64,000 bases of DNA. It comes from Hesseltinella vesiculosa. Taxonomy: Eukaryota; Mucoromycota; Mucoromycetes; Mucorales; Cunninghamellaceae. The notes under the pieces are model-generated. The model was not told the origin of the DNA. It made no database searches and worked only from the letters and a program-made list of their open reading frames with translations. Shown here one piece after another: positions 1,880 to 59,933 of this stretch. Both the position numbers and the translations under genes were made by a program. Location of the stretch: the NCBI GenBank assembly GCA_002104935.1, contig MCGT01000022.1, positions 62,001-126,000 on the forward strand, written 5' to 3'. Numbering within the stretch: position 1 is the stretch's first letter; every line of letters starts with the position of its first letter.

Positions 1880-2228
1880 TTGGCTACCCCCGACCTACAA
1901 CAAGAGCAAACACAGCGTCTATATTGGGTGCTATCTCAGCAGCAAGTTTGATTACGGTTGCCGTAATAAAACCAAGACCTGCCTAGAAGAAAAAAGCTGA
2001 TGGATATAATAAGGTCAGGAACTGTAACGGGTCATTACATTTGTTTCTTTAAAGTGACTCTCGATGAAATGGATAAACTTCCGCATATGAACGGTCACTA
2101 CATAGTTATGGACAATACACCGATTCACACGCATGAAAACATTAGGGAGTATATTGAGTATCGAGGATACAAATGTGAGTATCTTCCTACTTGCTCTCCT
2201 GAGCTTAATCCAATAACCAGTTTTGGGT
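1880..2228 (+). pseudogene. Decayed IS630/Tc1/mariner-type transposase fragment
   Basis: Two frames joined by a frame change read as the catalytic core of a DDE transposase of the same superfamily as the intact one at 7012-8316. The first part (about 1899-1973) contains ILGAISAAS, comparable with ILGAICAAG of the intact protein, and ends in a stop. The second part (2000-2230) contains HYIVMDNTPIHTHENI and CSPELNPI, matching YLVMDNAPIHQ and YSPELNPIEQFW. The final catalytic Glu of the NPIE motif is lost (NPIT). Start, N-terminal DNA-binding domain and terminal repeats are not visible, so this is an inactive relic. Its sequence differs enough from the intact element to be a separate family rather than a recent copy. 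Confidence 0.75.
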
Positions 2229-2542
2229 ACTGAAACAGATTGCTGGAAAGACTGTACTGTGTTACCAAAAAAAAAAGTCGCAAAGCAAGAAAAAAGTCAG
2301 CTACGAAAAAGGAAAATGAAGTGGTTAGTTTAGCAAAAGCTAGGCATCTTTTTATTTTTTTCCACTCACCCTTAGAAAAATTGAATTTGGCATCTTCTTT
2401 TTTGCTACTTACAGCCAGACAAGACGTTCAAAGAACTAACAGGTCATTTTGCCTGAGTGGATGCGAAGTCTGATCAGATTACTGCACAGTTGCTTTTTTT
2501 TGACTTACAGCTTATACGTCGTACAGGTTTTTGATACCTGGA
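2229..2542. other. 3' flank of the Fanzor gene; candidate guide-RNA region
   Basis: No gene is visible. In characterised Fanzor and TnpB loci the guide (omega) RNA overlaps or follows the nuclease 3' end, which here is this stretch on the minus strand. Immediately after the stop codon, at 2524-2540, lies a small inverted repeat: CAGGT, a 7-nt spacer, ACCTG. Whether it is part of an RNA scaffold is inference only. Confidence 0.35.
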
Positions 2543-5500
2543 TTATGTGGGGGTTGGTTGGTTCGGTTGCGCGTCTGGTGGCGAGGTTGTGGAAGGGTCG
2601 GCCTGCTCTTGGTCTTGGGGGGTGAAAACAAGAGGCTTCACACCAAGAGCAGCAAAATGGGAGAGCGCATGGATGTTTCGGGAGGCGTTGCAATCTCGTT
2701 GCCACACAGTGCTACATGTTTCGCAACATTGCACTGCATGCAACTTTGATTCGCCACCATCCACCGTCACGTTGGTCAAAGTCTTCTTCCCACATTTGCT
2801 GCAAACTTTGGACGAAAAGGCTTCGTCTGCATCGACCACCAAAATGGGGAATTGCCGCTGGGCCAATCGAACCACTTTTTTGAAGCGATTTGCGAGACCA
2901 AGTGGCTTTTTGTTGAAGCGTCGCCTGCCAAATTTTCCATCACCAATGCACAGAAGGGGTATCTGGGTGGATGGTTGGAAAGGCAGGGGACGCCACTTTC
3001 CATTTCTTGTCTCGCTGAATTAAAAAGAAGTCAGTTTTTTTTTTGTTGGTTTTGATTTTGACATTACCTTGGCTGAGGAGGGGAGGGATGTGCATGCTGA
3101 CGCCGACGACTCTTAAAACTGCCATCTTCATTCAGCCGGCTCATGTATGTGTCGTGGCTGTTGTAGTTGGAGGCATGGGATCCGTACTTGCGACCACCGT
3201 CGACAAATGTCTTGACCAGGTCGTGGGTAACGAGCTGCGCGCCCCTGTAGTTCAAGAAGCGGAGCTGCTGAATGTCTTGGCCATAAAATAAGAGCAATCG
3301 ATCCAAATGGCGTAGCTTTTCAGTGATGTAGGCAGTGATGTTTTGGCGCACTGATGTTTTTGGCGATCCAAAGGACGACTCAATTTCAGTGATGCCGTGC
3401 TGCTGCTTCCAGGCTTTGATATTTGCGACGGTTTTTCGATAGCCAGCTTTGACATAATATTCAGCACTGGAAAAGCGGCGGATCTGATGCCTTGGGTTCG
3501 GCGGTGTGGCTAGCAATGGTTCATCTGGAAGGTCCGCTGGGGAGAGGTAAGCACGGGGATCGGAGGAGTTTGATGCTACAAAGATGTCGGTGACGCCAGG
3601 ATCTATACCCCAAACGTCCATTTGCTGCATGGCCACAGGGCTAATGTCGGTCAGTCGAAGAGGTTGGCCGCTCGATGCACCAGACATCTTTTTGAATGGA
3701 ACGCAAACGGAATAGCCATCAGTGTACAGCTGATTGAGGAAGATTCCGCGACTAGAAAATGAAAAGTGAGATATCTTTTTTCCGGCAATGCTCTCACCTT
3801 TTTTTTTATCTCTTTGTTTCCGACTTACCCACTATGGATCCTTTTCAAGTTCAGGATCTTGAAATTGTCATGCACTTGTCCAGCAACTGGGCGAATCGCT
3901 TGAGGTACGACGTAGTGTTCTAATCCGAAATGGCGCATGATTTCACCAAGAGAATCGTGGGAGACTTGAATGAATTTTCGGGTGAGACACGGTGTGGGAA
4001 GGACCGAGAAAAGACGCACTTTTGGTGACACAAGGTATGCTTCGGATGAGAATGTGCCAGCAGCAAGAGCTCGTTGCGTTTCGGCCACAAGCGTGGTCAC
4101 TTGTTGGCGGGATTGCTGAGAAAAGACACGAGGCAGTCGTTCAATGTCCACTGGAGTGTTGTTGTTGATGGATTTGGATATACCACGGACGAGCTTTGAC
4201 CGCTGGTAATGGTTCAGATAACTCCAGTCATGCATTCCAGAGAGCTGGTGATGTGTCCAATTCCAATGAACGGAGGTTTGTGGCGCCGGTGCGGTGTGTT
4301 GATCTTCATTTAGGCGCTCCAAGCTGCACAAGACATCAAATAGAATCTTGATAAACAGGTGCGGATACCGGGTGATCGTTGTCGTTGTGATAGACACAGA
4401 TGGAGGAACCTGGCTACGAATAGCGTTGTCAGTTGAGAGAGATGGATCAGCTAGCGGAGGCAAGGTATAAGGGCCAGTAGCAACATCAAGGCGCGAGATG
4501 CCAAGGGTTGAGATAGTGTCGATGGACATGGCTGTGGCTGTGCTGACCGAGAGGTTGTCAACCTCTTCTTGGTTGTCCTCGTCGTCTTGGTTGTCCTCAT
4601 CCGCGTCTTGCTGTGTCAAGGGTCCTTCTTGTTCAATACGAATGGCGAGTTGTGTCCATCTGTCCCAAGTCTCGTCTATCAATTCGTTCAAAGCAGTGTC
4701 GACCTTGGCATCCACCATAGCATGGTCGATAGAATCTTCAACATTGATCGTCGGCCAAACTGGTTCAAAGTCTTGGTTTTGTGCACACGTGTCAAACACG
4801 AAATCCGCAAGGGCTCCAACTTGAAAGCGATTAAGTTCCTATTGAAAAAAAAAAAAGGTGAGCTGTTAATGATGGAGGTTTTTTGGAGTTACTTACTGGA
4901 ATAGAACGAGCAAGGCGAGCTTGCAAATAACCAATGTAGGCTTGGTCGAAACCCTCGACCACATGATTCACCATGCTGGAGGCGTACGTGCGGGCCGTGG
5001 AAGTTAAAATCTTGGAAAAGCCAATAGGGCGTTTCCCTCGCACAGTAGACGGGACCAGTGGACAGTGGACATTAGGATGCTGAATCAGAAATGTGGCAAA
5101 CGCTTCTTCAATGTGTTGACGGACCTCTTCAGTAAAGAGTGAGTTATTCGACCAAGATCGGCCAATGACAAGCTGAAACACACCGATAGTCCAGGAACAC
5201 TAGAGGGATATCCAGGCCATTGGTGAGGCGGGAGTTGAAGTAATCCAGGATAAACAGGTGACTGCAAATCAACACACGACGATTAAAATCAACAACTGCT
5301 TGAAGGCCATCCATAAAAATTTCTTTCTCGGCATTGCGTAGCGATTTCAATAATGGGTACAGTCCATGCTTGATCGTGAGTGTCTTGGTCTTCTTTCCAC
5401 CAAGCAATTGGTTCCCTTGTGCACGTTGAGAGGGTATGCGGTAGGGACATAGGCGACTTGATGATCTTGAATGGGTCAACGACGATTCTATGTTTCCATT

Positions 5501-5837
5501 CTTTATGCAAGTTGGGCAGGGACGTCGAGATCGTCGCTGTCGATCGATGGCAAGGCTACGCTCATCTCTGCCGGTACGCTTTGCTGCTTTTTCATCAGCA
5601 TTCTGTCTTCTTTTTGTTACATTCCTTGTTTTGTTTCGTCTTTGTCGCTTGACAGGGCCTGATGAGAAAAGCGATTAGATAACGGCGCTATCGAAAAGAC
5701 AATTCATATGTATCATGCTTGGTCATACGTGACGTAGAAGGGCCAGCTTCTTCTTCAATTGGCACTAACTGAGTTCTATCCGACTCCACCTCGGGCGTAT
5801 TTTGTCTTCTTTTTCTACCCTGCTTGGTACGGGCCAT
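2543..5837 (-). CDS. Fanzor-family (eukaryotic TnpB-like) RNA-guided nuclease, one apparent frameshift
   Basis: Fanzors are eukaryotic relatives of TnpB that use a guide RNA to cut DNA with a RuvC-like domain. Exons on the minus strand: 5837-5729, 5658-4897, 4838-3829, 3751-3068, 3014-2543; all four introns are GT-AG and phases agree. The spliced product is about 1011 aa. In order: a basic N-terminus (KQGRKRRQ, NLS-like), a zinc-knuckle-like CPTC...HSRSSSRLCP near residues 80-105, a long middle region with an acidic insert, YTDGYSVCVPF, RuvC-I WGIDPG (Asp codon 3603-3601), GDGKFG, RuvC-II DADEAFSSKVC (Glu codon 2824-2822), a zinc ribbon CSKC...CCETC, and RuvC-III RDCNASRN (Asp codon 2695-2693). 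The three acidic catalytic residues are all present. Exon 2 holds one extra base near 5182-5185, so the assembled frame needs a +1 correction: either a recent inactivation, a sequencing error, or an undetected splice event. No clear terminal repeats were found. Neighbouring DNA is transposon-rich, as expected for this family. Confidence 0.85.
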
Positions 5838-6762
5838 TTTTCGTGATGAAGGAAAACAAGAAGAAAGAAACAAAAAAAAAAGGTGAAACGCGAGTTGTAT
5901 TTTCACTCCGCCATTTCCCCACTCTCCAACTGCGTCCCATTCTTCCTTTCCATTTTAGTCTATTTTTGATTCGTTGAATATTAGTAAATTGACCTAAGAG
6001 CATTTTCTTTTACTATTTAAAACTTATATATCCTGTATTTGGGCAATAATCGTTGCGATTCGTTGCAGGGAACACAAACTCATAAAGCAGTAGGCCTGAG
6101 CTTTCGATATGCCTGAGATTTTTTATAATTTATGCTTACATTGCATGTCGACAATCCCTAGCCCATCACTTCCATGCCTGAGAGGTGTGTACCATTATTA
6201 CCCCTCCATGTGCAAAATTTGATGTGAATCGATTTTTGACGAATTTGAAGTTGTTATTTGATCAGTTCGCCTGGGAGTCATCTGAAAAAATGGCATTTTT
6301 TAGCTGAAGTTTGAGACACATCAAAACTAACCTGCTAAATATTAGCTAGGAGATCTCTACCAATCGATCTATTTTTTTTAGTATCATCACCACTCAACAC
6401 GCTATTTACCCATGCGTAGTTTTACGTCAATCCATTGATCTTGAAAAAAAGTCAGTCAGAATTTCACATTCCGATATCTGCTCGAATCTCTGTGATCAGA
6501 CTAGCTGAATCATAGCTATCGTGTACGTTTGTATTAAGTAATGGTCTTGGTTAAAACCACTAATGATTCAAACATTGTGATCCAAGAACTATCTTGGGAG
6601 CACGAATAGGAAAAAAACGCCCTCTGATCGTACTCCACTTTTTTTCAGTGTTGGCCATGTAATATTTTGATTGGCTAGAAATATTAACATCACTGATGAG
6701 ATTCCAAAAGCAGAACGACATGCGACTTTTAGAATGCGACAGCATTTGCTGGAAACACATTA
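5838..6762. other. Spacer between Fanzor gene and mariner element, with part of a dispersed repeat
   Basis: No gene. The segment about 6205-6335 is an inverted, diverged copy of the repeat at 8640-8780 and 39060-39200 (shared words include CCATGTGCAAAATTT and, on the same strand, TTTGATCAG followed by a CTGGG block). Short similarity also exists between about 6050-6100 and 36958-37010 (GTTGCAG...CACAAACTC...GGGCTGAG-like). Confidence 0.5.
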
Positions 6763-6876
6763 CACTCTCTCCATGAATAAGTGGCGGCTCTCCTGGAAGA
6801 CAGGTGGCGGACTTTGGATTTTTGAGTGTCGCACAAGCCAAGACAAATTTGGCGCAGCGTTTTTTTTTTTTTGTCG
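6763..6876 (+). repeat. Left terminal inverted repeat of the mariner element
   Basis: Matches the reverse complement of 8379-8492 along about 114 bp with a few mismatches, including a T-tract at the inner end. Preceded by TA at 6761-6762. Confidence 0.9.
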
Positions 6877-7011
6877 GGATGACCAAATGGACTATGTCGC
6901 ATTTTGAGAAAGTTGCCTTTTTCCATGTTTCCCCGATAAACAAGTATATAAGAAGCGATCTAATGTGTGGCAGTTGTACATTTCAAAGGTCACTGATTTT
7001 GGTTATTACGT

Positions 7012-8316
7012 ATGAAAAAGTTCAGCTTTGTCCACGACGATGGTTTTGGGAAAATAACGGATGACAGCGGTCAAGCGATGGTCCTTGATGAGGAGCCAAC
7101 CATTGAACTGGATCCAGGCGCGATGATGGAAGTTGAAACACTGACCAACCTCAATCAATATCTGTCAGAAGGAATTGCTGCTGCCGATTTGATTGAAGCA
7201 GTGATATCCGAGTCCACCGACAAAGAAATCAGCCCAAAGAAAAATGTTGGGAAGCGAAAGCCGCGACATGATTACGAAGTCAAGCGTCTTGTTGTCACCT
7301 ACAAGTTGGAAAAGCTTTGTTCAGCAGCTGAAGCTGGACGTCGGCACAATGTTGACTCAAGAACTGCCCAGAGGTGGTGCAAGCAATTTGACGAGGAGGG
7401 AACGATAGACATGAAGACAAAAAACGCCGGACGGAAAACTATCTTGCTTGATGATCACAAGGATTTCATCATCTCCTTCATCGACGACAAGCCGACAGCG
7501 ACGGTATGCGACGTTGTGGATGCACTCATTCATGAATTCCAAGGGTTGACTATCAAGAAATCGACTATACATAAGTATATGGTGAATGACTGCCGATTGT
7601 CGCTCAAGAGGACCAGAGTGCATGCTGAGAATCGAAACGCGGATGAAACGCTCGACAAGCGACTCGCATGGGCGGTGCAGTGGACTGCAACAGACATGGA
7701 TTTTATAAAGAACTGTGTCTTCATCGATGAAGCGTCATTTAGCATCAATTTGCGCCGAACAGTAGGCTGGTCGCGTGTCGGATCAAAGACAGTCGTGGAA
7801 GCAGCCGCCACGAAATCCAAGACGCATACGATCCTTGGTGCTATTTGTGCTGCTGGTGTTGTTCAAATCAGCATGAGAAGCCCGCCTACAGGGAACAAGA
7901 AACGCAAACTTGATCAAGATATCTACAAGCACATTGGAGTCGGCACAAACACTCATCACTACATCGCCTTCTTGAATGAGGTCATGAATACTATGGACCA
8001 ACACCCAGAATTTGAGGGCTACTATTTGGTGATGGACAATGCACCAATTCATCAATCCAAGGCCATCGACACCTTCATCAGGAACCGTGGGTATCGATGC
8101 ATGTATCTTCCGCCCTATTCCCCTGAGCTCAATCCGATTGAGCAGTTCTGGTCGGCCGTAAAGAGCAAGGTTAGGCGTGACGAGCTGAAAGATGACGAGT
8201 TGTTGTCTCATCGAGTCAAGGCGGCGTGTAATAATGTTTCTATCAAGAGTCTGCATGGCTTTATCGGTTATTCTGCTGCCCGGATCAATGACTGTTTCCA
8301 TAGGACTCCTATGTAG
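7012..8316 (+). CDS. Tc1/mariner-superfamily DDE transposase
   Basis: Intact intronless gene of 434 aa that would excise and insert its own element at TA sites. The N-terminal third has a basic stretch (KKNVGKRKPRHDYEVK) and helix-turn-helix segments (LCSAAEAGRRHNVDSRTAQRW). The catalytic domain shows the DDE triad: Asp in VFIDEASF, Asp in YLVMDNAPIH, and Glu in SPELNPIEQFW, with 34 residues between the last two (DD34E spacing). The C-terminus follows with no frame break. The gene sits inside matching terminal repeats, so protein and DNA substrate are both complete and the element may be autonomous. The ATG at 7012 is the first of the frame; starts at nearby downstream ATGs are possible. Confidence 0.93.
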   Translation: MKKFSFVHDDGFGKITDDSGQAMVLDEEPTIELDPGAMMEVETLTNLNQYLSEGIAAADLIEAVISESTDKEISPKKNVGKRKPRHDYEVKRLVVTYKLEKLCSAAEAGRRHNVDSRTAQRWCKQFDEEGTIDMKTKNAGRKTILLDDHKDFIISFIDDKPTATVCDVVDALIHEFQGLTIKKSTIHKYMVNDCRLSLKRTRVHAENRNADETLDKRLAWAVQWTATDMDFIKNCVFIDEASFSINLRRTVGWSRVGSKTVVEAAATKSKTHTILGAICAAGVVQISMRSPPTGNKKRKLDQDIYKHIGVGTNTHHYIAFLNEVMNTMDQHPEFEGYYLVMDNAPIHQSKAIDTFIRNRGYRCMYLPPYSPELNPIEQFWSAVKSKVRRDELKDDELLSHRVKAACNNVSIKSLHGFIGYSAARINDCFHRTPM

Positions 8317-8378
8317 TTGTATTTAATAAACAACTTGTCGCACGACAAGTCTATTACGACACGAAAAAAAAATATCTA

Positions 8379-8492
8379 CGACAAAAAAAAAAAAACGCTG
8401 CGCCAAATTTGTCTTGGCTCGTGCGACATTCAGAAATCCAAAGTCCGCAATCCGTCTTCCAGGAGAGCCGCCACTTATTCATGGAAAGAGTG
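8379..8492 (-). repeat. Right terminal inverted repeat of the mariner element
   Basis: Reverse complement of 6763-6876, followed by TA at 8493-8494. Confidence 0.9.
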
Positions 8493-8564
8493 TAACTCAG
8501 CTGTGTGAAGGCGACATTCAGAGATTGAATATGATCACCTCCATGTTTCTTCATACTCTGCTTT

Positions 8565-9131: not shown

Positions 9132-10816
9132 TTATACAAATGCAAAGCCCGTGGCGCATTCATTGATAGCCTTGACCAAATTGGCGCGCAAACTTTCATA
9201 TGAATCATATTCTGGAATATCCACTTGGTTGAAGCTAAAGAAAAGAAAAAAAAATGAGTAGCTGCTTCCAACTAGAAAGGTGCATTCTTATTATTTTACC
9301 AAGTATGGGCCGAGGGCAGACGGTTTTCACCACCAAAGTCTTTGTGGATTTGGAATTTCTGGATGCCGCCAGAGCCTTGGAGATGGGAGAAGCCGTTGAG
9401 AGGGACTTTGGAGGTGCCGGTGGAGAATTGGAGCAGTTTGGCGCGCTCTTCTTGATCAAAGCTACGGACGGCGCGCCAGAACCACTGGACTTGAGGCGAG
9501 TTGGCGTGGTAGGTTTCATAGGTGGTGTTGTTCTTCCAGTCATCAAGATCAATATCGGGCAGGCCAGAGATCAATAATTCCAGCTCCTGCTCGTTGAAGA
9601 TCTGGATCAGCTCGGGTGGGATGATGTCGTGGAAGCCTTGGAGGAACCCGTTGATTTGGTCGCGGATGGCAATGGTCAGCTTCTGTTCAGTGACCAGGTT
9701 GACATACTCATGCTTGTTTGCCTCGGTGACAGCAAGGTCACGACCGCCAGGCTTGAGATCGACCGTCTTGGTGGTACCAAAGTCGTCGATTTCCATGCTG
9801 AACGTCAGGTCGATGACGTCGGTGATGTCATTGTCCAGCATCCATACCAGGCTCTTGTAGTATTCAGGGTCGATAGCTTCCACGTCACGGTAGTCGACAG
9901 ACCGGTTGAGGATGTGTTTGTAGAAGGAGCGCGTGAAGTAGGCATCCAGCAGGCGGCCATCGTAGATTGCTTTGCCGATCACACGACCAACAAACTTGAA
10001 ATAGCTGAGATGGTCATTGTTGACGTACGATGCGCGGTTGGGTTGATACGTCAGCTTGTCGGCTGCCGAGGCAATGAACAAGGCATAGTTGGGGTCGAAC
10101 ATCTGGCGTGCAAGCACCGAGAACCATTCGCGGCTGACACCGCCAGCATCCACACCTTCTTCGTCATAGAAGCGCACCATCAGTTTGCCATGCTTGATAT
10201 CTCGGCCGGGGCGGCCAAGAAGCTGTTGGTACGAGTCTTCAAACACATACTGCCGACGAACATTCAGTTGCAGGGGCGGGAAGTGTGAACGAGGCTCGGA
10301 GCGTTTGTGCAGTTGCTGGTGGAAATAGTTGCGCTTGTTGTCAAACTCAAGTATCTTGGGGTTGCGGACCAGCAATGAGAAGGAGCCACTCATGAGCGTA
10401 GGGTTGTTGCGCACCATGATATTCAAGATCTTCTTATGCTCTTCGGTAAACTTGAAGAAGAAGCTGTCTTCAGGTAGCTCGCTGTCCAAGGGGGCGGCTG
10501 TGACGGCACCCGGCGATGCGACGGCGCCAGTGGATGAGGTCGAAGGCAGATGGCCCCCAGCTGCATACTTGGACACGACCATGAATGACTCAATCAGCGG
10601 CAAGAGGACCGTGGCCACGTTGATGAATTCTTCCTTTTCATGGATCTGCGACAAGCAATTTCCAAGCATCTTCCACAAAGCCAAGAAATCCAGTTGGTCA
10701 TAAATGGCCAGCACACGCTTTTCGTCCTTTTCCTTGGCATCGTCTTCAGAACTTTTTTTTTTTAGAAAATAGAAGAAAAGAACAAAAGGTGAGCCCATAC
10801 AGCAAAAGGACTGGCG

Positions 10817-10848
<32 letters not shown>

Positions 10849-12214
10849 TGGTGGAAGGACGTTTGCGGGAGTAGACATAATCAATGGTTTTGAGGACACG
10901 GAGAAGCTTGGCTTGATGGGAGGTGGCAGCGAGGAAGGGAGACATGATGGAGGCCTGGATGTCGGTACCAGGCATAGAGTCACAGAGAACTTGGCTGAGT
11001 TCTTGCAGATCCTGGAGAATTTGGCGGCCAGAGACCTTGGCAGCTTCGGTGAGTTCACGGGTGATGGCTTGCAAGGCACCGTCCAGGGCCGACAGGTGGG
11101 AGATGACGCCCAAAGTGTATTGGAAAGTACGACTAGAGCACTCACCACTGGTCAAGACGTGCACCACCATTTTCAGATAATGGTCAGGGATCGTGGGTGG
11201 TTTGGGCACGGGTTTCTTGTGAGCCACAGGTGGGGCAGGCGCAGCCTCGGTCGATGCAAGCTCAGAGCTGGTTGCTTCGGGTTGCTGTTTTTGCGACTCA
11301 ACCTTTTCAACGTATTTGCGGACCAAGGCAGGGAAGGGACGGCACATGGTGGCCAGCAAGTTCATCAATTGCTCCATCAGGGTGGTGTTTTCGATAAATA
11401 CTGGGCGATCCAACAGGCTCATCAAGACCAGCAGTGGGTACTTGCTGGAGGGTTTGGCAGGGTCCTTTTCCTTGTGCTTGCCCTTTTTGCTGCTGGCACG
11501 TTTCAGGCCAGCGAGGCAGTCATTTTCAGCCAAAAAGTAGGTCAGCGATTGCTCGTTGCTGGACACAACATACTGGAGCACATCCAAGCAGCGCTGGGTA
11601 ATCAAGTTGGGCACGTTTTCGCCAATCGTTGTGGTGGTAGGAGCCGAGGTGGTAGGTTCATTGCTATTGCCACCAGCAACGGCAGGTGCTGTTGAGGAGG
11701 AGGAGGAGGAGGCAGGTGCCAGGGACGATGTTGAGGCTGACAGGCTGGCAGCCTTGGGGTATAAAGACAGTTGGGCAAAGCTCTTGTCAACCTCAGCCAG
11801 ATCCACACTGCCGTCGTGGAGGATGCAGATCAACAAGGATAAAAGATCACCACGCGTCTTGCTGTTTTCACACAGGTTGAGCAACAGTTTGTTGAGGAGG
11901 TTGCGGGAGATCGATTGTGGAACAAATAACAGACGGGCAAGGGTGGCCAGTTGTGTGCGGTCAACCAGCTGCATGGTATCGATGCGGCCCACGTGTTTCT
12001 TATTGCTGGCTGTCGTCCCTGCATTGGATCGAGTTTCTTGACGGAAACGACCAATCAATCGGTTCAATGGATCACCTGGTGACGATGATGAACGCAGACC
12101 ATCCAAATCACGTACAATGGCACCAAGCAAATTACGGGAGTTAATATCTGAGAGCAATCTAAAATGAGAATGAAATTGAAAAAAAAAAAGCAAGAGTGAG
12201 AAAAGAGCAATTCG

Positions 12215-12251
<37 letters not shown>

Positions 12252-15200
12252 ATTGTCATTATTGGCAGATGGGGAGGGAGCGGTGTCCTGGGCGGGCTGG
12301 GGAGTTTGTTGTTGGCGACGTTGGCGTTCGCGGCGTTCACGTTCGATGGCTTCTTGGCGGAGGACTTCTTCACGGATATCGGGAGGCAGGGCATCGAGGA
12401 ATTCAGGACTGATGGAGTCTTCTTCGGCTGGCTGAGGGGCAGGTTGTTGCTCACGCATGTGTTGATTGATGACTTCTTCACGCAAATCGTCGGGCAAGGC
12501 TTCTAGGAATTCGACATCAATACCAGTACCAGAAATGTCGACAGGCTCGCCATTGATGATGATGGTGGTGCGCTGCTGTTGTTGATCGGTTTGGCTTTCG
12601 TCAGCGACAGTGACCTCTTCGGTAGCATCGGGAGCTGGAGAGGACGAGACGTCCATGGCTTCGGCTAGCTCTTGTTGTTGACGAAGCTGCTCTTCAGCAG
12701 CAGCGGCAGCAGCTGCAGCACGTTCGGCAGCCAGGCGTTCTTCTTCTTCGGCCTTCTTGCGTTCTTCTTCCTCACGTTGCTTGCGTTCCTTGGCCTGCCG
12801 TTCAAGCTCTTCCTGGCGGCGCTGCTCGGCTTGGCGTTTTTCTGCTTCACGGCGCTTCTTTTCTTCTTCGAGGGCCAGGGGGATCAGGCCATTGAGCAGT
12901 GCGTTTGTCAGCTTGCTGGCCAAGTCGGTCATGATGTTGCCATAGAGCATACGGCCCTCTTGGTTCCATCGGTCAGCGGTAGTCATGGGCTGGAAGTCGT
13001 GCAAGATGGCAAGAGTTTGGCGCGATTCTTCTTGCAGGATTGTGCTGGCGGGAGTGGCTGATGAAGAGCCAGCAGCTTGGTCACCACTGGCGCCGGCACC
13101 GGCCCCAGCAGAGGTGGAGGCGCCCAGACCAGTGTTATTCACTGTCAAACCACCAGCAATCAAATGGTCGTGACCATGGTCATTGGCAAAAGGTCGAAGC
13201 AGGCGGCTGTGACCACCGAGGCCGCTGACACGGAAGTTTTCGCCACTGCCATAGGAAGTCAAGATGCTTTCGAGCACACGGATGGCATTTTCTCCCATGA
13301 TATCTTCAAATGCTTGGACATTGAGGCCAGAATGACCGCCGGTATGGCCAGCACCTAGGCGATGACGTCGAGCACCAGAATCCCAAGGACGACTGACACC
13401 ACCCACAACATCGGTAGATTCACCCATATCACGTTGATTAGCAAGCAAAGGATGGGTAGTGACATCGTCACCACCAGCCAAAGGTGCAGAAGGGTCGGCA
13501 CCAATGCCACGGAATGGACGGCCAGCTAAAAAACATAAAACTGTTAATAAATAAAGGGCGAGAAAGAGCCGTGTGAAGAGAGCGTTGCACTTGCCTAGTT
13601 CCAGGCGGCGCGTTTGAGCGGAGCGGCCGGGACGGCGGAAGCCAAGACCGCCAAACGATCGCGAACGTTCTTGCCAGCTTTCTTCATCATTGAAGGTGAG
13701 TTGCATGTTGGACTGGCCATCTTCCACAAAGAAAGGGTCCAAGTCATCTTCGTCAATCAAGACACCATCGTTCAGTTCGGCGTCAACTTCATCTTCCAGA
13801 TAACCTTCTGAGCCTTCTTCTTCATCAAAGTCGGACTGATCTAGCGTGTCCAAATCATTTTCATGCGACTGGAAAAATCAGAAAGAGAGAAAAAAAAAAA
13901 GTGAGTGCGTATGTCCTTTGTGTGCATATCATAAAGGGGAAAAAAGGATACTTACTTCATCAAAGCCGCGGTGATGGCGATGGGCTTCAGGTTCTTCTTC
14001 ATCAGATTCAATAGTAATTTCTGCACCGACAAACACACCCTCATCATCCATATCTTCAAAGCGCCAAGTCACAGCATGGCCATCGTCTTCATCGTCGGTA
14101 TCATGATCATGTGCATCATCCTCATCGGATTCGTCTTCATCGGATTCGTCGCCAGATTCATCCGTACCATGCTATTTAAAAAGAGGGTTAAGTTTTAGAT
14201 TTTTTTTTTTAATTTTACCTCGTGTTCTTCATCTGTTTCATAGTGGCGCAGGACAACTTCCATTTCTTGATCACCGTCTTCGTCGCCGTCTTCTTCTGAC
14301 ATGTCTGAAAGGTCACTACCAGTTTCGTCATCAAACTCTTCTTCATCAAAACTATAGACGGACAAGGAAAATGAGGGAACAGAGTTTTTTTTTTCCAACT
14401 CCCCTCCTTACCTGACGCCTTCTTCATCGGTTTCATCGTAATGATCTTCATCTTCATCCATGACGCTGCCATTGAACATGCCGAGGGAAGAATGGCGATA
14501 GAGATCAGGGGTATCTTCGTGATCATGATCGTGTTCGGGAATCAGGTTGTCGTCATCATCATCATCATCGGCTGGTTCGACAGAGGAGGCTGATGTAAGG
14601 GACAAATTGCTATTGCTGTGGACCATATCGGCGCTAGCCATGGTGACATCGCCTGAGCCTTGGGACGCCAGGGCACGCTGTTGTAAAGAAGACGAGGTTG
14701 GCTGGGAGGAGGTCGAAGCCGCTGCCTTGGCATCGGCGGCTTTCTTGGCGTCTTTGGCAGCACGCTCTTCGGCGGCCTTGCGTTCGATGGTGACAGCCAG
14801 TTTGGTCAGTTGTTCCAAGGGCCGGATCATAGTGCCAAGGACAGTTTTGGCATGAGGGTAGTTGACATCGACATCGCTGATGGCGCTTGTCATGACACCA
14901 ACAAAGCCCTTGTCAAGCATAATCTTGGCAAGCTGCAGCGAGGCATCTTCCTTGTGTTGCTGATGGACGTGGCCAGGGTTGGGGCGGGCATTGAGTACGC
15001 GGTGGCATAGGTCGGCAAGGCTGAGATACTTGTTGTACTTGGCTGAGAGCATGGCCGTTGATTGGGTGAGGTCTTTGAAGGCTTTGACAATGCCTTCCAA
15101 GACATATTTGCGCACATGGTTGAGATCATACTTGGTGTCAGAGGCGTAATTGGTGGCGGCATGGTCCTCGCTGCGAGAGAGGGTGTTGTAACACATGGCT

Positions 15201-18200
15201 ACAAGCACACACGAGGTCCACATGGAGATGCCTTGTTGCTTGCGTGACTCGTCGTCGCCGGGCTTAATGGCGTTGTGGGGAAGTAGGTCGTTGATCAGCA
15301 AGTTGAGAATGGCGTGGCGTGGGCGAGGCTGGGCACCATCCTTGTTGCCCCGGTGGCGGCTGAACCAGAACATGTCGTATTTACAGGAAGGGTAGGAGGA
15401 CACCAGCTCAACAAGGCATTGCAGCAAGAAGCCAGTGTAAGCATAGGTCAGATCCGTAGGCTTTTCGTCGGTAGCCACCTTGGCACGCGTGGCGAGGAGC
15501 TCGTTGAGCAAATGGCTGATGACAGTGGACGAATTTCGGTTAGAGCGCTGCGGCTGGGAGGCTGGTTGCTGAGAGTTGTCGGTGCCTGTGGAGGCTTCAG
15601 GGCCAGAAGCAGCTGCGGCAGGCGTGGTGGAGGACGAAGAAGACTGGTCATGCGAAGCGGCATCGGCCTGGTCTTCCTTGGAGAGGACCTTGATCTGGCG
15701 GTTGCGGTCATACTTGCTGTAGCGGGTGAGGCGGCAAATTTTTTCGGAGACACGCAAGAAAGCGTCGGGGTTGCGCAAGGCAATGGCGGCGTTGTTGCGG
15801 AAGAAAGTCTGGACGTCAAGGTTGCGGGGTCGTGGCACAGTGCCCCAGGTGGTGATGATGTCTTCGATTTGTTCTTCCAGAACAGCCCGGTCTTCGATAA
15901 CGTGACGCAGAATAAGGACAATAAAGGCTTGTTGACCCTGGAAGCCTTCGAGGCTAGATCGTGGTTTGCTGAACAGGAGGTCCAGACCACCCAGTTCCAC
16001 CAGTTTCATGGCTGCGTCATGAGATTTGGTCAGGCGCACGAGCACCCGTAGAATAGCATACAGATCGTCCTTGGACAGGCTTGGTTTTTTTAGCATGGCT
16101 ACGCAAGACTCCAACAGACTTGAACGCTGATCCAATGTCAATGTAGCAGCTTCGGATTCTTGCATTTCTACATCATCAGCAGCCTCCTTGTCGGGCTCGC
16201 CGCCCTCTTGATCTACAAGGCAGGATAGAATAAAAAAAAAAAAAAAAAAAAAAAAAAACGCGTGAGTTGCTGTGATCAAAAAAAAAAAAACACCAGGCTT
16301 GTTGGCCGCTTTCTTACCTTGCTCGGCTGTCAGCTTGACATGGGTAGGTTCATCAGCAATGGAGATCACCATTTCTAGGACGAGGAGAGCAGAGGCGAGC
16401 CAAGCAGGAGTGGGCTGGTCTGGTTGGGTAAGCTCATCTTGGTGTTTGGTGAAGAGATCAAAGAGACAGGCAAGGGTGCTGGTCATATCACGGAGAACCC
16501 GATGGAAGGGTGGGTCACGTAACAACAAGGCAAGGAGACGCAGTTGACGGCACAAGGATTGCTGTGACTCCGATTTCTCTTTTTGCAAGGATCGTTGGAT
16601 GCGGTCCACCAGCAACGTCAACAGGTGCTTAGCAAACGAGTTGTCAGTGTCGAACTTGCAGATGACCAACAGCAGGTCATGGACTTCGAAGAGAACGTCG
16701 TCACGTTCATCCAAGAGCGGCAAGAGCAGCGTTGGGATCGAATCACGCAGCTCTTGACGGATGGCCTTGAAAGTTTCGAGATCGACAGGGTCTTCAGTGG
16801 CTTTGATTTTGCCTTTATCCTTGGCTTGGTTGCCAGGGGTCATGAGCGAGAAGCGGTAGGGGTTGTCGGAGTGCTCGTCTTCAGCCTCACCGTCGTCGTC
16901 ATCTTCATCTTCCTCCATAGAGTCATTGTCCAGGTTCATCAGTTCCTCGTCTTCGCTGTAGTCTTCGTGCTCTTCATCTTCGTCTTCATGCATGTCGCTA
17001 TGAGCGTCGTCTTCGTCTTCATCGTCTTCATGGTGCTGGTCATCTTCTTGGAGTTGATCGGCGGCTGAGGTGGTGGTAGAAGAAGGAGGAGGAGAGGATG
17101 GAGGCTGGTCGCCGTCGGTGGAGGGATCTGCTGCTGCTGCCGGGGCGGGGGCGTCGGTGTCGGGCTCTTGTTGGTCTTGCTGCGAGCTGGTCTGAGTGTG
17201 ATTGGTGGAGGTGAGGAAATCCATTGGATGGCTGAACAAGTAGTCGACGGCACGGGAAATGTGGTTGTTGCAGCGGATCATGGCCTGCTCAGCACCGGCA
17301 CGGTTGAAGCCCATGTCGACAAGGGTTTGGACACCGGCTTCATTGGGGACAACGGGTGGACGTGCAGTGGTACCCGACGATGGGGGCATGGAGGCAGCCA
17401 AAGAAGCATGGATACGAGCAGCAGCGTCGGCATTATTTCCGCTGGAGGAGGCAGCAGCTGCAGCTGCAGCTGCAGCACCCAAGCTGCCCAAATTGACACC
17501 CAGGGCCGAGGAAGAGGCGGTGGCTGCAGCATCTTGTTTGGGTTTGTCCATGTCGCTTGCAATAATCTGAGACAAGCATTTGAAGAGCATGCGAAGGACA
17601 AATTTGGGAGCTTTATAGAGGTATTTTGAGTGCAGGTGTTTGCGGATGTCGGCCACTTTGACAGAGACAGAGATGTTCCAGGTGCGGGATTCAAAATAAT
17701 CGGGAGCGTCGTGGTCCTTTTTGGTAAAGTGGAAGGTAAAAGGCGAGTCCATCAGGAGCTTGGTAGAGCTGATGTTGGCGAGGACGGCAAGGAGCAATTC
17801 AATGCTAGAGTTGATTCGGTGTAGCACGTCTTGCTTGCTGGTATCGGGGTCATCCTCTGAGATGGTCGACTGCAATGACAAAGCGGTCTGCCAGAGTTGA
17901 TCCAAGCGGTCGGTCATGAGTTTGACGCCACCTTGGCGATCATAGGTCACAGCCAATGGGGTATTCAAGCCTGGCGCAGTACGGTCGTCCAGCAGAAGCA
18001 TGGAGGTCATGGAGAACATGGAGGCTAGGTAGTTGTATTTGCAGGGAGGTGCATCGTCAGCTTCGATACAAGGCCAGTTGATGCTGTCCATCAAAACTTT
18101 GGTCATCAAGCGGGCCCACTTGAATGCTTGACGGATCTGTGTGCTATCAATGTTGCGGCGGCCCACAGTGACTTTGCTCATGACTATATTTCAGAGGAAG

Positions 18201-53011: not shown

Positions 53012-54628
53012 TTAGAGTTCATCGTGTTCGACGGCTTCATCAGCTTGTTCTTCCTTTTCTTCAGTGACAGGAGCTTCAACAGACAGGTTCAGATCCTTGT
53101 TGGAGCTGTGTTCGTTCAGGAAGCGGACCAAGTCAGCATGAGAGCGGTCACCACTGTAGTCGATGATTTCATTGGTCTCAGCCTTGAAGAATTTGAGGGT
53201 GGGGAAGCCTTCGACACGGACGCCGACTTCAGGGGGGATATCATTTTCGGTACCGTCGAGCTTGGCAATGACCACTTTGCTATCCTTGACAGCTTGGACT
53301 TGTTCACCGAGTTTTTCCCAGGTGGGAGCCAAGTTCTTGCAGTGGCCGCACCAGGGGGCATAGATTTCAAGGAACACATCGTTGGACTTGTCAAGCACAA
53401 TGTCGTTGAATTGCTTACCGACAACGACCTTGACAGGACCGTCGTTGGATTCGGGAATGTCTTCAGAGTTGAGGGTAGGGTCGACTTCGCCAGCGGCAAA
53501 CTTGGTAACAAAGTCTTCAAGGGCGGCAGTGTCCAATTCACCAGAGTAGGGGTATTTGGCGGCAGTATCGAGGTTTTGGATAGCAATGGCAGGGTAGGCA
53601 CCTTCCTTGACACCGACGTTCTTGGCATGGCTACCGTATTGAGCAGCGTCCAAGTGGGCAAAGCTGACCTTGCCCTTGAACTTCTTGGCCACGGGGCGCA
53701 CGATGTCGTCCAACTTGGCACGGTCGGCATCGTTATCGGTGAAGATGTAGCCCAGAGGCAAGCCGGTTTCCATGTAGGTCATGAAGTTTTCGCCATTGAC
53801 TTGGTCCAACAGAGGCACAGAGTTGGACTTTAAGAATTCGTTCAACTTTTCGGCCTTGACTTCGTCAGCGCCCTTGAGTTCCAAACGAGGGTCGTCGAAT
53901 TGGCGGTACAACACGACAGTGGGGAATTCTTCAACTTCTTGTTGCTTGGCCACGTCCTTATCAGTCACCACACCAAACAAGTAGTCGTCGCGCAAGCGCT
54001 CGGCCAAAGTGTCAAAGGATTCGCGCGTTTCTTTGTCTTCGGCATCAACATAGGCCACCATGACCATGCGGTCGCTGTCCTTGAATTCAGTGATGGATTC
54101 GGCATCCAACACGGACACAGAGGGCAAGGCTTGCTTCTTCATGTAGCTGACAATGCCTTCGTGTTGACGGGAGCCCTTGTATTCAGAGGCTTCACCTTGA
54201 CGGAACACCTTGAGGGTAGGATAGCCTTGCACGCCGTATTCTTGGCACACATCTTGGTTTTCGGTACAATCCACCTTGGCCAAAGCAATCTTATCCTTCA
54301 GGTCAGTGGCAGCCTTTTCGTATTCAGGAGCTAGAGATGAAGATCAGCAAGGTCAGCACGCCACCATCGGTTGTCATGGAGTCTCCACCGAGGCCATTCC
54401 CTTTTTCTTCTTGGCCATCTCCCTGTTTCTCTTCAACTTACCCAAGGCCTTGCAGTGACCACACCAAGGGGCAAAGAACTCAACCAGCATCAGATCCTGA
54501 CCTTCGACGTTTTTCTTGAAGTCGGCGGTGGTGAGGGACAAGACATGGCTGTCATCAGCAGCCATCACATTGGAGATGGAGGCAAAAGAGGCCAAGATAG
54601 CAGAGAACAAGAGAGTCTTTTTAACCAT
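53012..54628 (-). CDS. PDI1: Protein disulphide isomerase
   Basis: ER-lumen oxidoreductase that forms and rearranges disulphides in secretory proteins. Two exons (54628-54442, 54330-53012) give 501 aa, the usual PDI length. A signal peptide (KKTLLFSAILASFASISNVMA) is followed by thioredoxin domains a-b-b'-a': active sites FFAPWCGHCKAL in the first (the intron falls right after it) and IYAPWCGHCKNL in the last. An acidic tail ends with the ER retrieval signal HDEL. Codon use is strongly biased towards C-ending codons, as expected for a highly expressed gene. The complete order of domains, both CGHC motifs and the HDEL make this assignment firm. Confidence 0.97.
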
Positions 54629-57093: not shown

Positions 57094-59933
57094 GGTCAGT
57101 GTGAAGAATTACCGGCAAGTCGAGCCACCTTGAGGCCATGCGAAGAGCGACACACACCTGGCTGAATGCGATGCAAAAAGGTGAAAGAGCTGGGGTCTTC
57201 GTAAAGCGTCGTCTTGTAACAGGCCAGGCGATCCAGGGGGGCAATGACGTCAGCAAGTTCGTGGTAGTGGGTGGCAAACAGCGTACGGCAGCCGATGTGG
57301 TCATGCAGATGCTGGAGGATGGCATAGGCCAGGGAAAAGCCATCGGTGGTGGCTGTGCCTCTGCCGACCTCGTCCATGATGACGAGCGAACGCGGTGTAG
57401 CCTGCTGCAAGATCGTGGCGGTCTCGGCCATTTCCACAAGGAAGGTGGATTGATCCTGGGCCAGGTTATCCGCGGCACCGACGCGGCTGAAGATTCGGTC
57501 GGTCAGGCCAATGGTGGCTGAGCGAGCAGGAATGAAGCTGCCCATGTGGGCCATGATGACCATGAGCGCGTTTTGTCGGAGAAAGGTGCTTTTGCCGCCC
57601 ATGTTGGGTCCTGTCAGCAGCCAGACAGATTCAGCATCGGACATGCGCAGGTCGTTGGGGATAAACGTGCGGCCCTTGCGCGCCAGATGCATTTCCACCA
57701 CCGGATGCCGGCCACCCACAATATGCGTTGTGTTGCAAGCTGCCGAGATCTCGGGCCGTGTCCAAGCGTGGTGGCAAGCCAGCCAAGAAAAGGTCGTCAG
57801 TACGTCCAGTTCTGCCAGCGCTTTCCATGCCTCCATGAGCGATGCCCGGTGCTGATCCAGTTGTTGGCATAAGCCTTGGAGCAGCACATGTTCCCACTGC
57901 GTGATTTGGTTCAGGGTGTCGTCCAGATCCATCGACAGCTCCGACCAGGCCGTCAGGTGGTATCTCCGCTTCGTCTTGGTCTCATGCAGCAATGTCAGGC
58001 CGTCGACCTGGGCTTCAATCTTCTTGGCTTGAGCAGCACTGATTTCCACAATGGGCTGCTGTTGGTTTTGCAAAAGGAGCGTACGACCGCCGATGGTTCG
58101 CAGCTGTTGCAGCATGTCGGTCTTGCGCTGCTCTAGTTTGGCGAGGGTATCATAAAGACTGCGCAGGGAAGGGTGGTAGTCGGGATGGATGAGGCGGCCG
58201 GGTGCTTTTTTTTCGTCTTCAGCTATATCTATTGTTGGGCTGCCATAGTCCTCCAAGGTGTGTTGTTGCAGATCGTCCAGGAAAGCACGTGTCAGGTTGG
58301 AGAGCAGTGTCGCATGAGGATCGAGTCGAGTCAGCATGTTTTGTACACACGCAGGTGGAGGTGAGGTTGCCGGCGTAAAGACACGGCCAAGTGATTGGAT
58401 CACAGACAAGGTGCGGCCGATCGCGAGCATGTCCATGGCTTGACGTGAGCGTAATTGTGTCAATTGGTAAGTTTGAACGGCTGATGGTGTCACTGCGGGC
58501 TGTTCATCACTTTGTATTCCTGCATCTGTTGTGGATTCACTGTTGCGATTTCAAAAAAAAAAAAAAAAAAAAAAAAAAACGAGGTGAGGCGACGTCTAGG
58601 GTGATCCGCTTTTTACGTTTGCGTGAGGGTCAATCGCTGTAGAGCACGTTGGGCATCCGTGCTTTGTCTGAGAAGATCGCGCACGTCATCAAGCCGGTCG
58701 GGATCATGAACAAAAAAGCCGACGAGGTCGAGCCGTTCTTCAATGGCAGACTGGGCAGCCAGAGGTGCAGCAATCCATTGGGAGAGCAAGCGAGATCCAG
58801 CAAAGGTGTTCGTACGGTCGAGCAATCCGAGAAGACCATCTTGGCGCCGACCGTCTTTCATGCCTTTGAGCAGCTCCAACGAGGTCAAGGCGGCACTGTC
58901 GATTTGCAAGGTAGTGTTAGACTGGAACGGAGAAGGAGGCGACAGGCGGGGTTTGTCGGAGAGGTGGGTGCTGTCGATATAGCGCAGGAGAGCCAAGGCT
59001 GGGGCGCGGCAGAGCCATTGGCTTGGGTCTGTAGAGGACATCAACGAATCAAAAGCCGCTGGTAGTGTTGCCGTGGGGATGAAGAGATCGGTGGGTTGAT
59101 GGGTGACAGTGAACTGGTCGGCCATCCAGGTCAACAGATCAGGGTCCAGATCGGTGGCCTTGGGTAAAATGATTTCTCGAGGTTGGATGCGCAGCAGGTC
59201 GCTCTGCAACGCAGCTCGTGAGGATTCTTGTACAAGGAATTCACCCACAGACACGTCAACCCAGGCCAATTGGATGGTGTCATCGGAAGGTAGGATGGAC
59301 AGGAGGTAATTGTTGCGTTCGGCTTGAAGATATCGGTCGTCAATGACAGTGCCAGGAGTGATGACACGGGTGACAAATCGTTCCATGCCCGAGGCATCTT
59401 GTCGAGAGGCAAGGCCCGTTTGTTCGCAAAGAGCCACGCGGCAGTCGTGGCGGTTGACGAGGATGTCCAGGTATTTGTCCAAGGCACGGGAGGGGAAGCC
59501 CGCAAAGTCGACGGTGATATCGGATGTCATTTGCTTTCTCGTCAATTTCAAATCCAAGAGGGAGGCGTAGTTGGTAGCGTGCTGTTCATAGAGCTGGCCC
59601 GAAAATCATAGCAATCAATGATTCAATACGGACCATTCTTTGCATGCCCTCCATTACCTCATAAAAGTCACCCACTTGAACTAACAGGACACAAGAAGGG
59701 TATTGTTCAGAGTATTGTCGAACAACATCAATGACGATGGAGCCGGACGTGGGGTGTGTGGGGACGGTGGCCGGATCAACTGTTGTTTTTGGTTTGTAAG
59801 GGGCGACAGGAGGCGAATCAGGCACAAGCAGATCGGGAGACCCTATTGAGATTTTCTTGCGCACACATATGCTTGGGGTATAGAAACGCAGGCAACAAGG
59901 AGCACGTGGTCGTAACCTTCGCAGAGCAATCAT
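56910..59933 (-). CDS. MSH1: MSH1, mitochondrial MutS homologue
   Basis: DNA mismatch-recognition ATPase that maintains the mitochondrial genome. Four exons (59933-59658, 59593-58617, 58539-57113, 57013-56910) close in phase to 927 aa (yeast Msh1 959). The N-terminus is an Arg-rich presequence without acidic residues (MIALRRLRPRAPCCLRFY). Next come the MutS domain I mismatch-contact motif, here VQVGDFYE joined to LYEQHA, then DITVDFAGFP, ALCEQTG and TRVITPGT; the core and clamp; and the ATPase: Walker A TGPNMGGKSTFLRQ, the DQSTFLVEM block, Walker B SLVIMDEVGRGTATTDG, and FATHYHELA. The mismatch-contacting Phe of the GDFYE motif is present. The last intron contains a (GA)n microsatellite in sense orientation (57061-57090). 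Confidence 0.95.

Follow-up and report, generated by a model that had tools for sequence, protein, structure and literature searches.

The 64,000-nucleotide stretch of the Hesseltinella vesiculosa genome analysed here, henceforth the window (assembly GCA_002104935.1, contig MCGT01000022.1, positions 62,001 to 126,000 of the forward strand), very probably carries a degenerate copy of a multi-exon Fanzor1 gene, descended from TnpB, within a terminal-repeat transposon of this fungus. We regard as established the gene model obtained by comparing copies, its motifs, its family membership by profiles and by the predicted fold of a relative, the dispersal of the family over different sites, selection acting on the protein and the frameshift that interrupts the window copy. 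Published work is cited by its PMC identifier.

On the minus strand, five exons are joined across four GT-AG introns of 70, 58, 77 and 53 bp (Table 1), with the coordinates that an earlier note on this DNA had assigned to them. The motifs CPTC, WGIDPG, DADEAFSSKVC and RDCNASRN were all located in the window copy; the RuvC Asp-Glu-Asp motifs and the zinc ribbon named in the earlier note thus stand at their positions, and the N-terminal zinc knuckle is present as a zinc-knuckle-like CxxC...H...C motif. The latter is also visible by eye in a second family of the genome, family B, and in the proteins P0003, P0008, P0009 and P0010, in a comparison where the gene models P0001, P0002 and P0005 start past the motif and P0004, P0006 and P0007 were left out. 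Exon 5 alone matches the Pfam model PF07282 (E 8.4e-11) and this match, together with selection on the reading frame across copies, indicates that the signal of a gene exceeds chance.

The assembly (27.05 Mb in 85 contigs) was searched with the RuvC exon and returned at least 81 matches, of which 18, at an identity of at least 88%, represent 13 loci carrying the exon whole or in part, window included; the 12 sister loci were fetched and aligned with the window copy. The frame is open across all five exons in four of the 13 aligned copies (L009, L012 and L013, of 1015 residues, and L014, of 1010), and the other nine, read with the window's exon map, are broken or truncated. A single premature stop interrupts each of L010 and L011; the frame is broken in L020, in L019 and in the window copy; L016 is truncated, and L019 is truncated at one end and runs to the contig end at the other. 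The exon map used to assess the diverged copies L015, L017 and L018 was that of the window, and their damage may therefore be overstated. L013 lacks an AG at the acceptor of intron 2, and the donor of intron 4 is GC in L012 and L013.

Exon 2 of the window copy changes frame between 5185 and 5184, where 11 bp are deleted both here and in L019; of the 12 aligned copies that can be read there, the other 10 have them, L016 ending before that point. Because of this deletion the window reading frame ends at codon 208, and the expectation that splicing would yield one complete protein is not borne out; activity, also proposed for this copy, can be proposed only for its sisters. That the window copy still functions, through different splicing of exon 2 or frameshifted reading, is very unlikely. 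P0002, a gene model of 804 residues from the other deletion-bearing contig, does pass the site by omitting a stretch, but residues common to P0001 and P0003 are lost in that model, and all four open-frame copies are among those that retain the 11 bp. Set against its open-frame sisters, which may still be alive, the frame-broken window copy is therefore dead.

Purifying selection on the protein is indicated across nine copies (window, L009–L014, L019 and L020), dead copies included. The ratio of nonsynonymous to synonymous polymorphism (pN/pS) was 0.22–0.51 over 36 pairs, and 76 of 148 variants change the protein, compared with a mean of 105.4 expected when the same base changes are placed randomly; none of 2000 simulations was as low as 76, the smallest simulated count being 85. 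Variants at codon positions one, two and three number 36, 37 and 75.

We assign the window gene to Fanzor1 from sequence and from the predicted fold of a relative. The Fanzor/TnpB motif, D-X(125,275)-[TS]-[TS]-X-X-C4 zinc finger-X(5,50)-RD (PMC3627910), is found in the open-frame copy L009 as D681, SS at 926–927 (two residues before C930), CETC at 956–959 and RD at 965–966, with spacings of 244 and 5; the window copy carries the same motifs, but downstream of its frame break. The Fanzor signature, DPG in RuvC I and a Glu six residues ahead of the first zinc-ribbon Cys (PMC10711439), appears as WGIDPG and as E923, six residues from C930, although the distance from DPG to Glu is longer than the 120–160 residues required by the search expression in that paper. 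The profile search proposed in the earlier note bears out membership of the Fanzor (TnpB-like) family, as do motifs and a relative's fold: the family profile matches SpuFz1 with E 1.7e-11, SpuFz1 stands first in the profile searches, and the family profiles match it over the part encoded by exon 4. A PDB sequence search with the L009 protein alone gave no significant match. Structural comparison, likewise proposed, stands for a distant relative and not for the window protein itself: the relative's predicted fold matches the three solved Fanzor1 structures well above TnpB and Fanzor2, and Fanzor1 chains rank first in the fold searches. In homologue searches that scored only the candidates sharing most words (3, 3 and 6 hits) and may miss more distant relatives, both top-ranking database proteins bear the name Hesseltinella vesiculosa (Mucorales); 29 pattern matches among viral contigs yielded no confirmed viral relative. 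It is highly improbable that this gene is a TnpB of bacterial type or a Fanzor2 carried by an IS607-like element. Its zinc ribbon does match the guided_TnpB and IS607_TnpB models, every match being below cut-off, but introns, a DPG with displaced Glu and the lead of Fanzor1 over Fanzor2 and TnpB structures all speak for Fanzor1.

The gene lies in an element whose copies recur at different sites. Eleven of the 12 sister loci have at least one element end in common and then different flanking sequence; the copies end in TACTGTG(T)TTCC downstream of the gene and in GGAAACAC(T)GTA upstream, beyond which the flanks differ. L010 and L020 resemble each other in the downstream flank, and L018 carries the reverse of this sequence upstream, since each of these copies adjoins the apparent end of another repeat. 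Of the downstream ends that can be read, 9 of 10 have a TA at the terminal motif (L019 being truncated), as have all eight readable upstream ends, counts which omit the L013 and L020 rows (not the element's end) and to which L014, L016 and L019 contributed none. No target duplication longer than 7 bp was seen around L022, L023 or any of five family A copies examined. Approximately 500 bp upstream of the gene (window 5925–6427) are missing from L009 and L012 and kept in several other copies. No transposase was recognised inside the element, where ORFs (open reading frames) in 5838–6762, not Pfam-scanned, reach at most 140 residues; on the opposite strand of 2255–6762, also not Pfam-scanned, there is no ORF above 162 residues. 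A domesticated host gene, instead of a transposon gene, might be suspected from an exon structure largely common to family B and from selection on the protein. The RuvC exon at 13 loci, the common ends with different flanks and the damage to most aligned copies leave that alternative with next to no probability, and favour a transposon-borne Fanzor1.

The Fanzor element stands between mariner-type elements and shares a TA with each. The transposase of the upstream neighbour, whose gene is outside the Fanzor element, matches DDE_3 (E 9.3e-27), and on the other side a similar terminal repeat at 2244–2256 shares the TA, such that a mariner-like end is present on both sides in the window. The remnant region 2015–2227 is matched, whole or in part, at 19 other places; the last 29 bases of this left remnant (2228–2256), which include the Fanzor-like terminal repeat, are matched at none of the 19. 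A mariner-type element adjoins the upstream end in four of the eight readable copies (window, L009, L010 and L017), and the mariner's own ends, TACACTSTTTCCA, are similar to those of the Fanzor element. With two mismatches permitted, four matches to the mariner end pattern occur in the window where 2.96 are expected by chance, and therefore the likeness of ends counts only together with position. Mariner copies often stand end to end, overlapping by a TA, on assembly contigs C1, C4, C8 and C34; the adjacency of Fanzor and mariner may therefore be a habit of the mariner. An autonomous partner with the same ends was sought, and the pattern TACAGTSTTTCCAGCAA occurs at three places only. Given these mariner-like ends and the Fanzor-only mariner elements described in PMC3627910, we infer that the Fanzor element is probably moved in trans by a mariner transposase recognising similar ends. 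It is further conceivable, if unlikely, that the nuclease is a passenger without present role, its protein decaying while the family spreads only through mariner action. Nine damaged or truncated copies among 13 (three of which were assessed with the exon map of another copy), a deletion-bearing type found at two places with different flanks and the frequency of adjoining mariner-type elements would suit this idea, but protein-changing variants are clearly fewer than the neutral expectation.

Table 1. Coordinates of the Fanzor1 element, its gene and the adjoining mariner-type elements in the window.
Feature	Position	Strand	Remarks
Fanzor-bearing element	2255..6762	minus	TA at gene-downstream end to TA at gene-upstream end; 4.5 kb
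Gene-downstream terminal repeat	2255..2267	minus	TACTGTGTTACCA in window
Gene-upstream terminal repeat	6750..6762	minus	Terminal repeat
Exon 1	5729..5837	minus	Begins MARTKQGRKRRQ, basic, resembling a nuclear localisation signal by eye; present in 12 of 13 aligned copies
Exon 2	4897..5658	minus	CPTC zinc-knuckle-like motif from 5518 downwards; disrupted by 11-bp deletion
11-bp deletion site	5184..5185	minus	Frame then stops at 5146–5144; ORF 5144–5674
Exon 3	3829..4838	minus	REC/WED part, assigned from position in protein
Exon 4	3068..3751	minus	RuvC I with WGIDPG; catalytic Asp codon 3603–3601
Exon 5	2543..3014	minus	Glu codon 2824–2822; Asp codon 2695–2693; stop TAA 2545–2543
C4 zinc ribbon	2803–2714	minus	Within exon 5
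Candidate guide (omega) RNA scaffold	2394..2545	minus	Substitution-free among nine copies from stop codon onward
Remnant of another mariner-type element	1970..2256	plus	By eye; transposase-like ORF 1970–2233
Neighbouring mariner-type transposon	6761..8494	plus	Shares TA with Fanzor element; transposase ORF 7012–8316
Mariner terminal repeats	6761–6773 and 8482–8494		

The stretch that follows the stop codon may encode a guide RNA. From 2542 to 2399, gapped columns excluded, none of 135 sites is substituted among the nine copies, compared with 25 of 247 intron sites (Fisher 1.5e-5) and 144 of 3019 exon sites (0.0026), values which are not true probabilities since the copies are related; the next 128 sites hold eight substitutions. 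Among ten 3' ends compared, the candidate stretch has one 8-bp deletion and one change in the length of an A run. Its folding is weak (z -1.76, with 8 of 200 shuffles as good). No match at the gathering score of Rfam and no tRNA was found in the window. In SpuFz1 the guide RNA spans the 3' end adjoining the flank (PMC10432273), a part which varies among the Hesseltinella copies. In the explanation that we propose, an intact sister would make a protein of approximately 1015 residues, and this protein would bind a guide RNA whose transcription starts in the 3' end of the element and continues into the flank, a use of guides expected from the family; in the window the flank supplying the guide would be that below 2255. 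The complex would find DNA matching the flank beside a TA-type motif, that is, an empty or sister site, where the RuvC site formed by D681, E923 and D966 would cut the target and repair would copy the element back, movement itself probably being performed in trans by a mariner transposase.

Several observations weigh against the reading as a whole. The two structure models, neither of which is the window protein, are of modest confidence (predicted local distance difference test, pLDDT, 49.0 and 60.9), and P0009 is only 26–27% identical to the family A proteins. The TA duplication is observed as a TA at both ends, without comparison with an empty site. No ghost elements, that is, ends without the gene, were found: searches with the 3' end yielded 10 long matches, each at a RuvC-exon locus, and four short ones left unopened; with the 5' end there were 38 matches, including 13 long ones, and the four long matches that lack a RuvC exon belong to truncated copies or reach the end of a contig, the shorter ones being unopened. 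The invariant run of 152 columns at the candidate guide, although the longest in the gene, is not exceptional (375 of 5000 random placements are as long). The whole 3' end folds no better than its shuffles (z -0.06), nor do the terminal 75, 90 and 144 nucleotides (z 0.19, -0.07 and 1.18).

Other Fanzor families are present in the genome, where PF07282, the OrfB zinc-ribbon model, has 46 matches (four below cut-off); it was also matched in 6 of 14 control genomes. Seven loci with weaker matches to the RuvC exon, L021–L027, were opened out of approximately 60 remaining matches. L021, L022, L023, L024 and L026 have the RD-x-N-A motif; it is missing from L025, whose alignment covers the zinc-ribbon part, and the alignment of L027 extends no further than residue 929 of L009. 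Family B, represented by a spliced model of L021, has the DPG, the displaced Glu and the zinc ribbon, with three introns placed as introns 2–4 of the window and no counterpart of intron 1 modelled. Between the GGxKYG and KWR motifs of RuvC there are 42 residues in family A and 259 in family B, the longer stretch (L021 4652–5980) having a high content of Ser, Ala, Pro and Thr. An 11-bp direct repeat flanks L021, around 2220 and 6719, but not L022 and L023. In L026 a zinc-ribbon piece of another Fanzor family occurs twice, in opposite orientations (1388–1564 and 6057–6233).

The window protein starts with MARTKQ (5837–5820), identical to the start of histone H3 (ARTKQ once Met is removed). Of the 12 aligned copies that have exon 1, 11 keep this start and L018 differs, but the copies are near-identical; family B and P0003 have other protein starts. 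If it is not chance, mimicry of the H3 tail by this Fanzor would be a far-fetched explanation, under which host factors that read or modify lysine 4 of histone H3 would anchor the nuclease at open chromatin or at that of transposons. An origin by capture of the start of an H3 gene was rejected: at the four H3-like starts in the genome there was no match to the Fanzor upstream region, though no direct alignment was made. Elsewhere in the window, Pfam identifies ordinary host genes, namely a HECT ubiquitin ligase region (9296–18190), a thioredoxin-fold protein resembling protein disulphide isomerase (53012–54343) and a MutS homolog (57096–59605).

The family is a further Fanzor1 of an already known sort, its window copy decayed. 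It adds a multi-exon Fanzor1 of approximately 1015 residues for which sister copies with an open frame exist and a candidate guide-RNA region has been mapped, and its mariner-like terminal repeats make the movement of Fanzor elements in trans by a mariner transposase testable. Within the literature on Fanzor, on Fanzor in Mucorales and on Hesseltinella transposons, no title or beginning of an abstract concerns this element, subscription papers being mostly outside that coverage. A 2013 paper (PMC3627910) described Fanzor1 in Rhizopus, Phycomyces and Mucor (the families ROr, PBl and MCi), Fanzor1 genes with several exons and Fanzor-only elements of the mariner type, and the structure of a Mucorales Fanzor1 has been solved (PMC11423790). 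The latter, PpFz1 of Parasitella parasitica (PDB 9cf0, 9cf1), has a RuvC insertion of approximately 100 residues that binds cyclophilin; we compare it with the 42 and 259 residues of families A and B by description, equivalence of position not being implied, and a PDB search with P0005 returned no PpFz1 sequence among the matches listed. The best sequence match among solved structures is SpuFz1 of Spizellomyces punctatus (PDB 8gkh; PMC10432273), which likewise belongs to a multi-copy element with terminal repeats, in which no cargo other than the gene is recognised. SpuFz1 is, however, a single ORF of 633 residues in an element of approximately 2.1 kb (PMC3627910) with 134 ghost loci (PMC10432273), whereas the Hesseltinella element of 4.5 kb has five exons encoding 1015 residues in its sisters, and no ghosts were found for it. 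CRe-1 of Chlamydomonas has its Fanzor1 gene likewise in five exons, but in a Helitron-type element of a green alga (PMC3627910). PUl-4, a mariner-borne Fanzor-only element, has mariner terminal repeats and TA sites (PMC3627910); the ends of the Hesseltinella element resemble those of a mariner, while the family B copy L021 is flanked by its 11-bp repeat.
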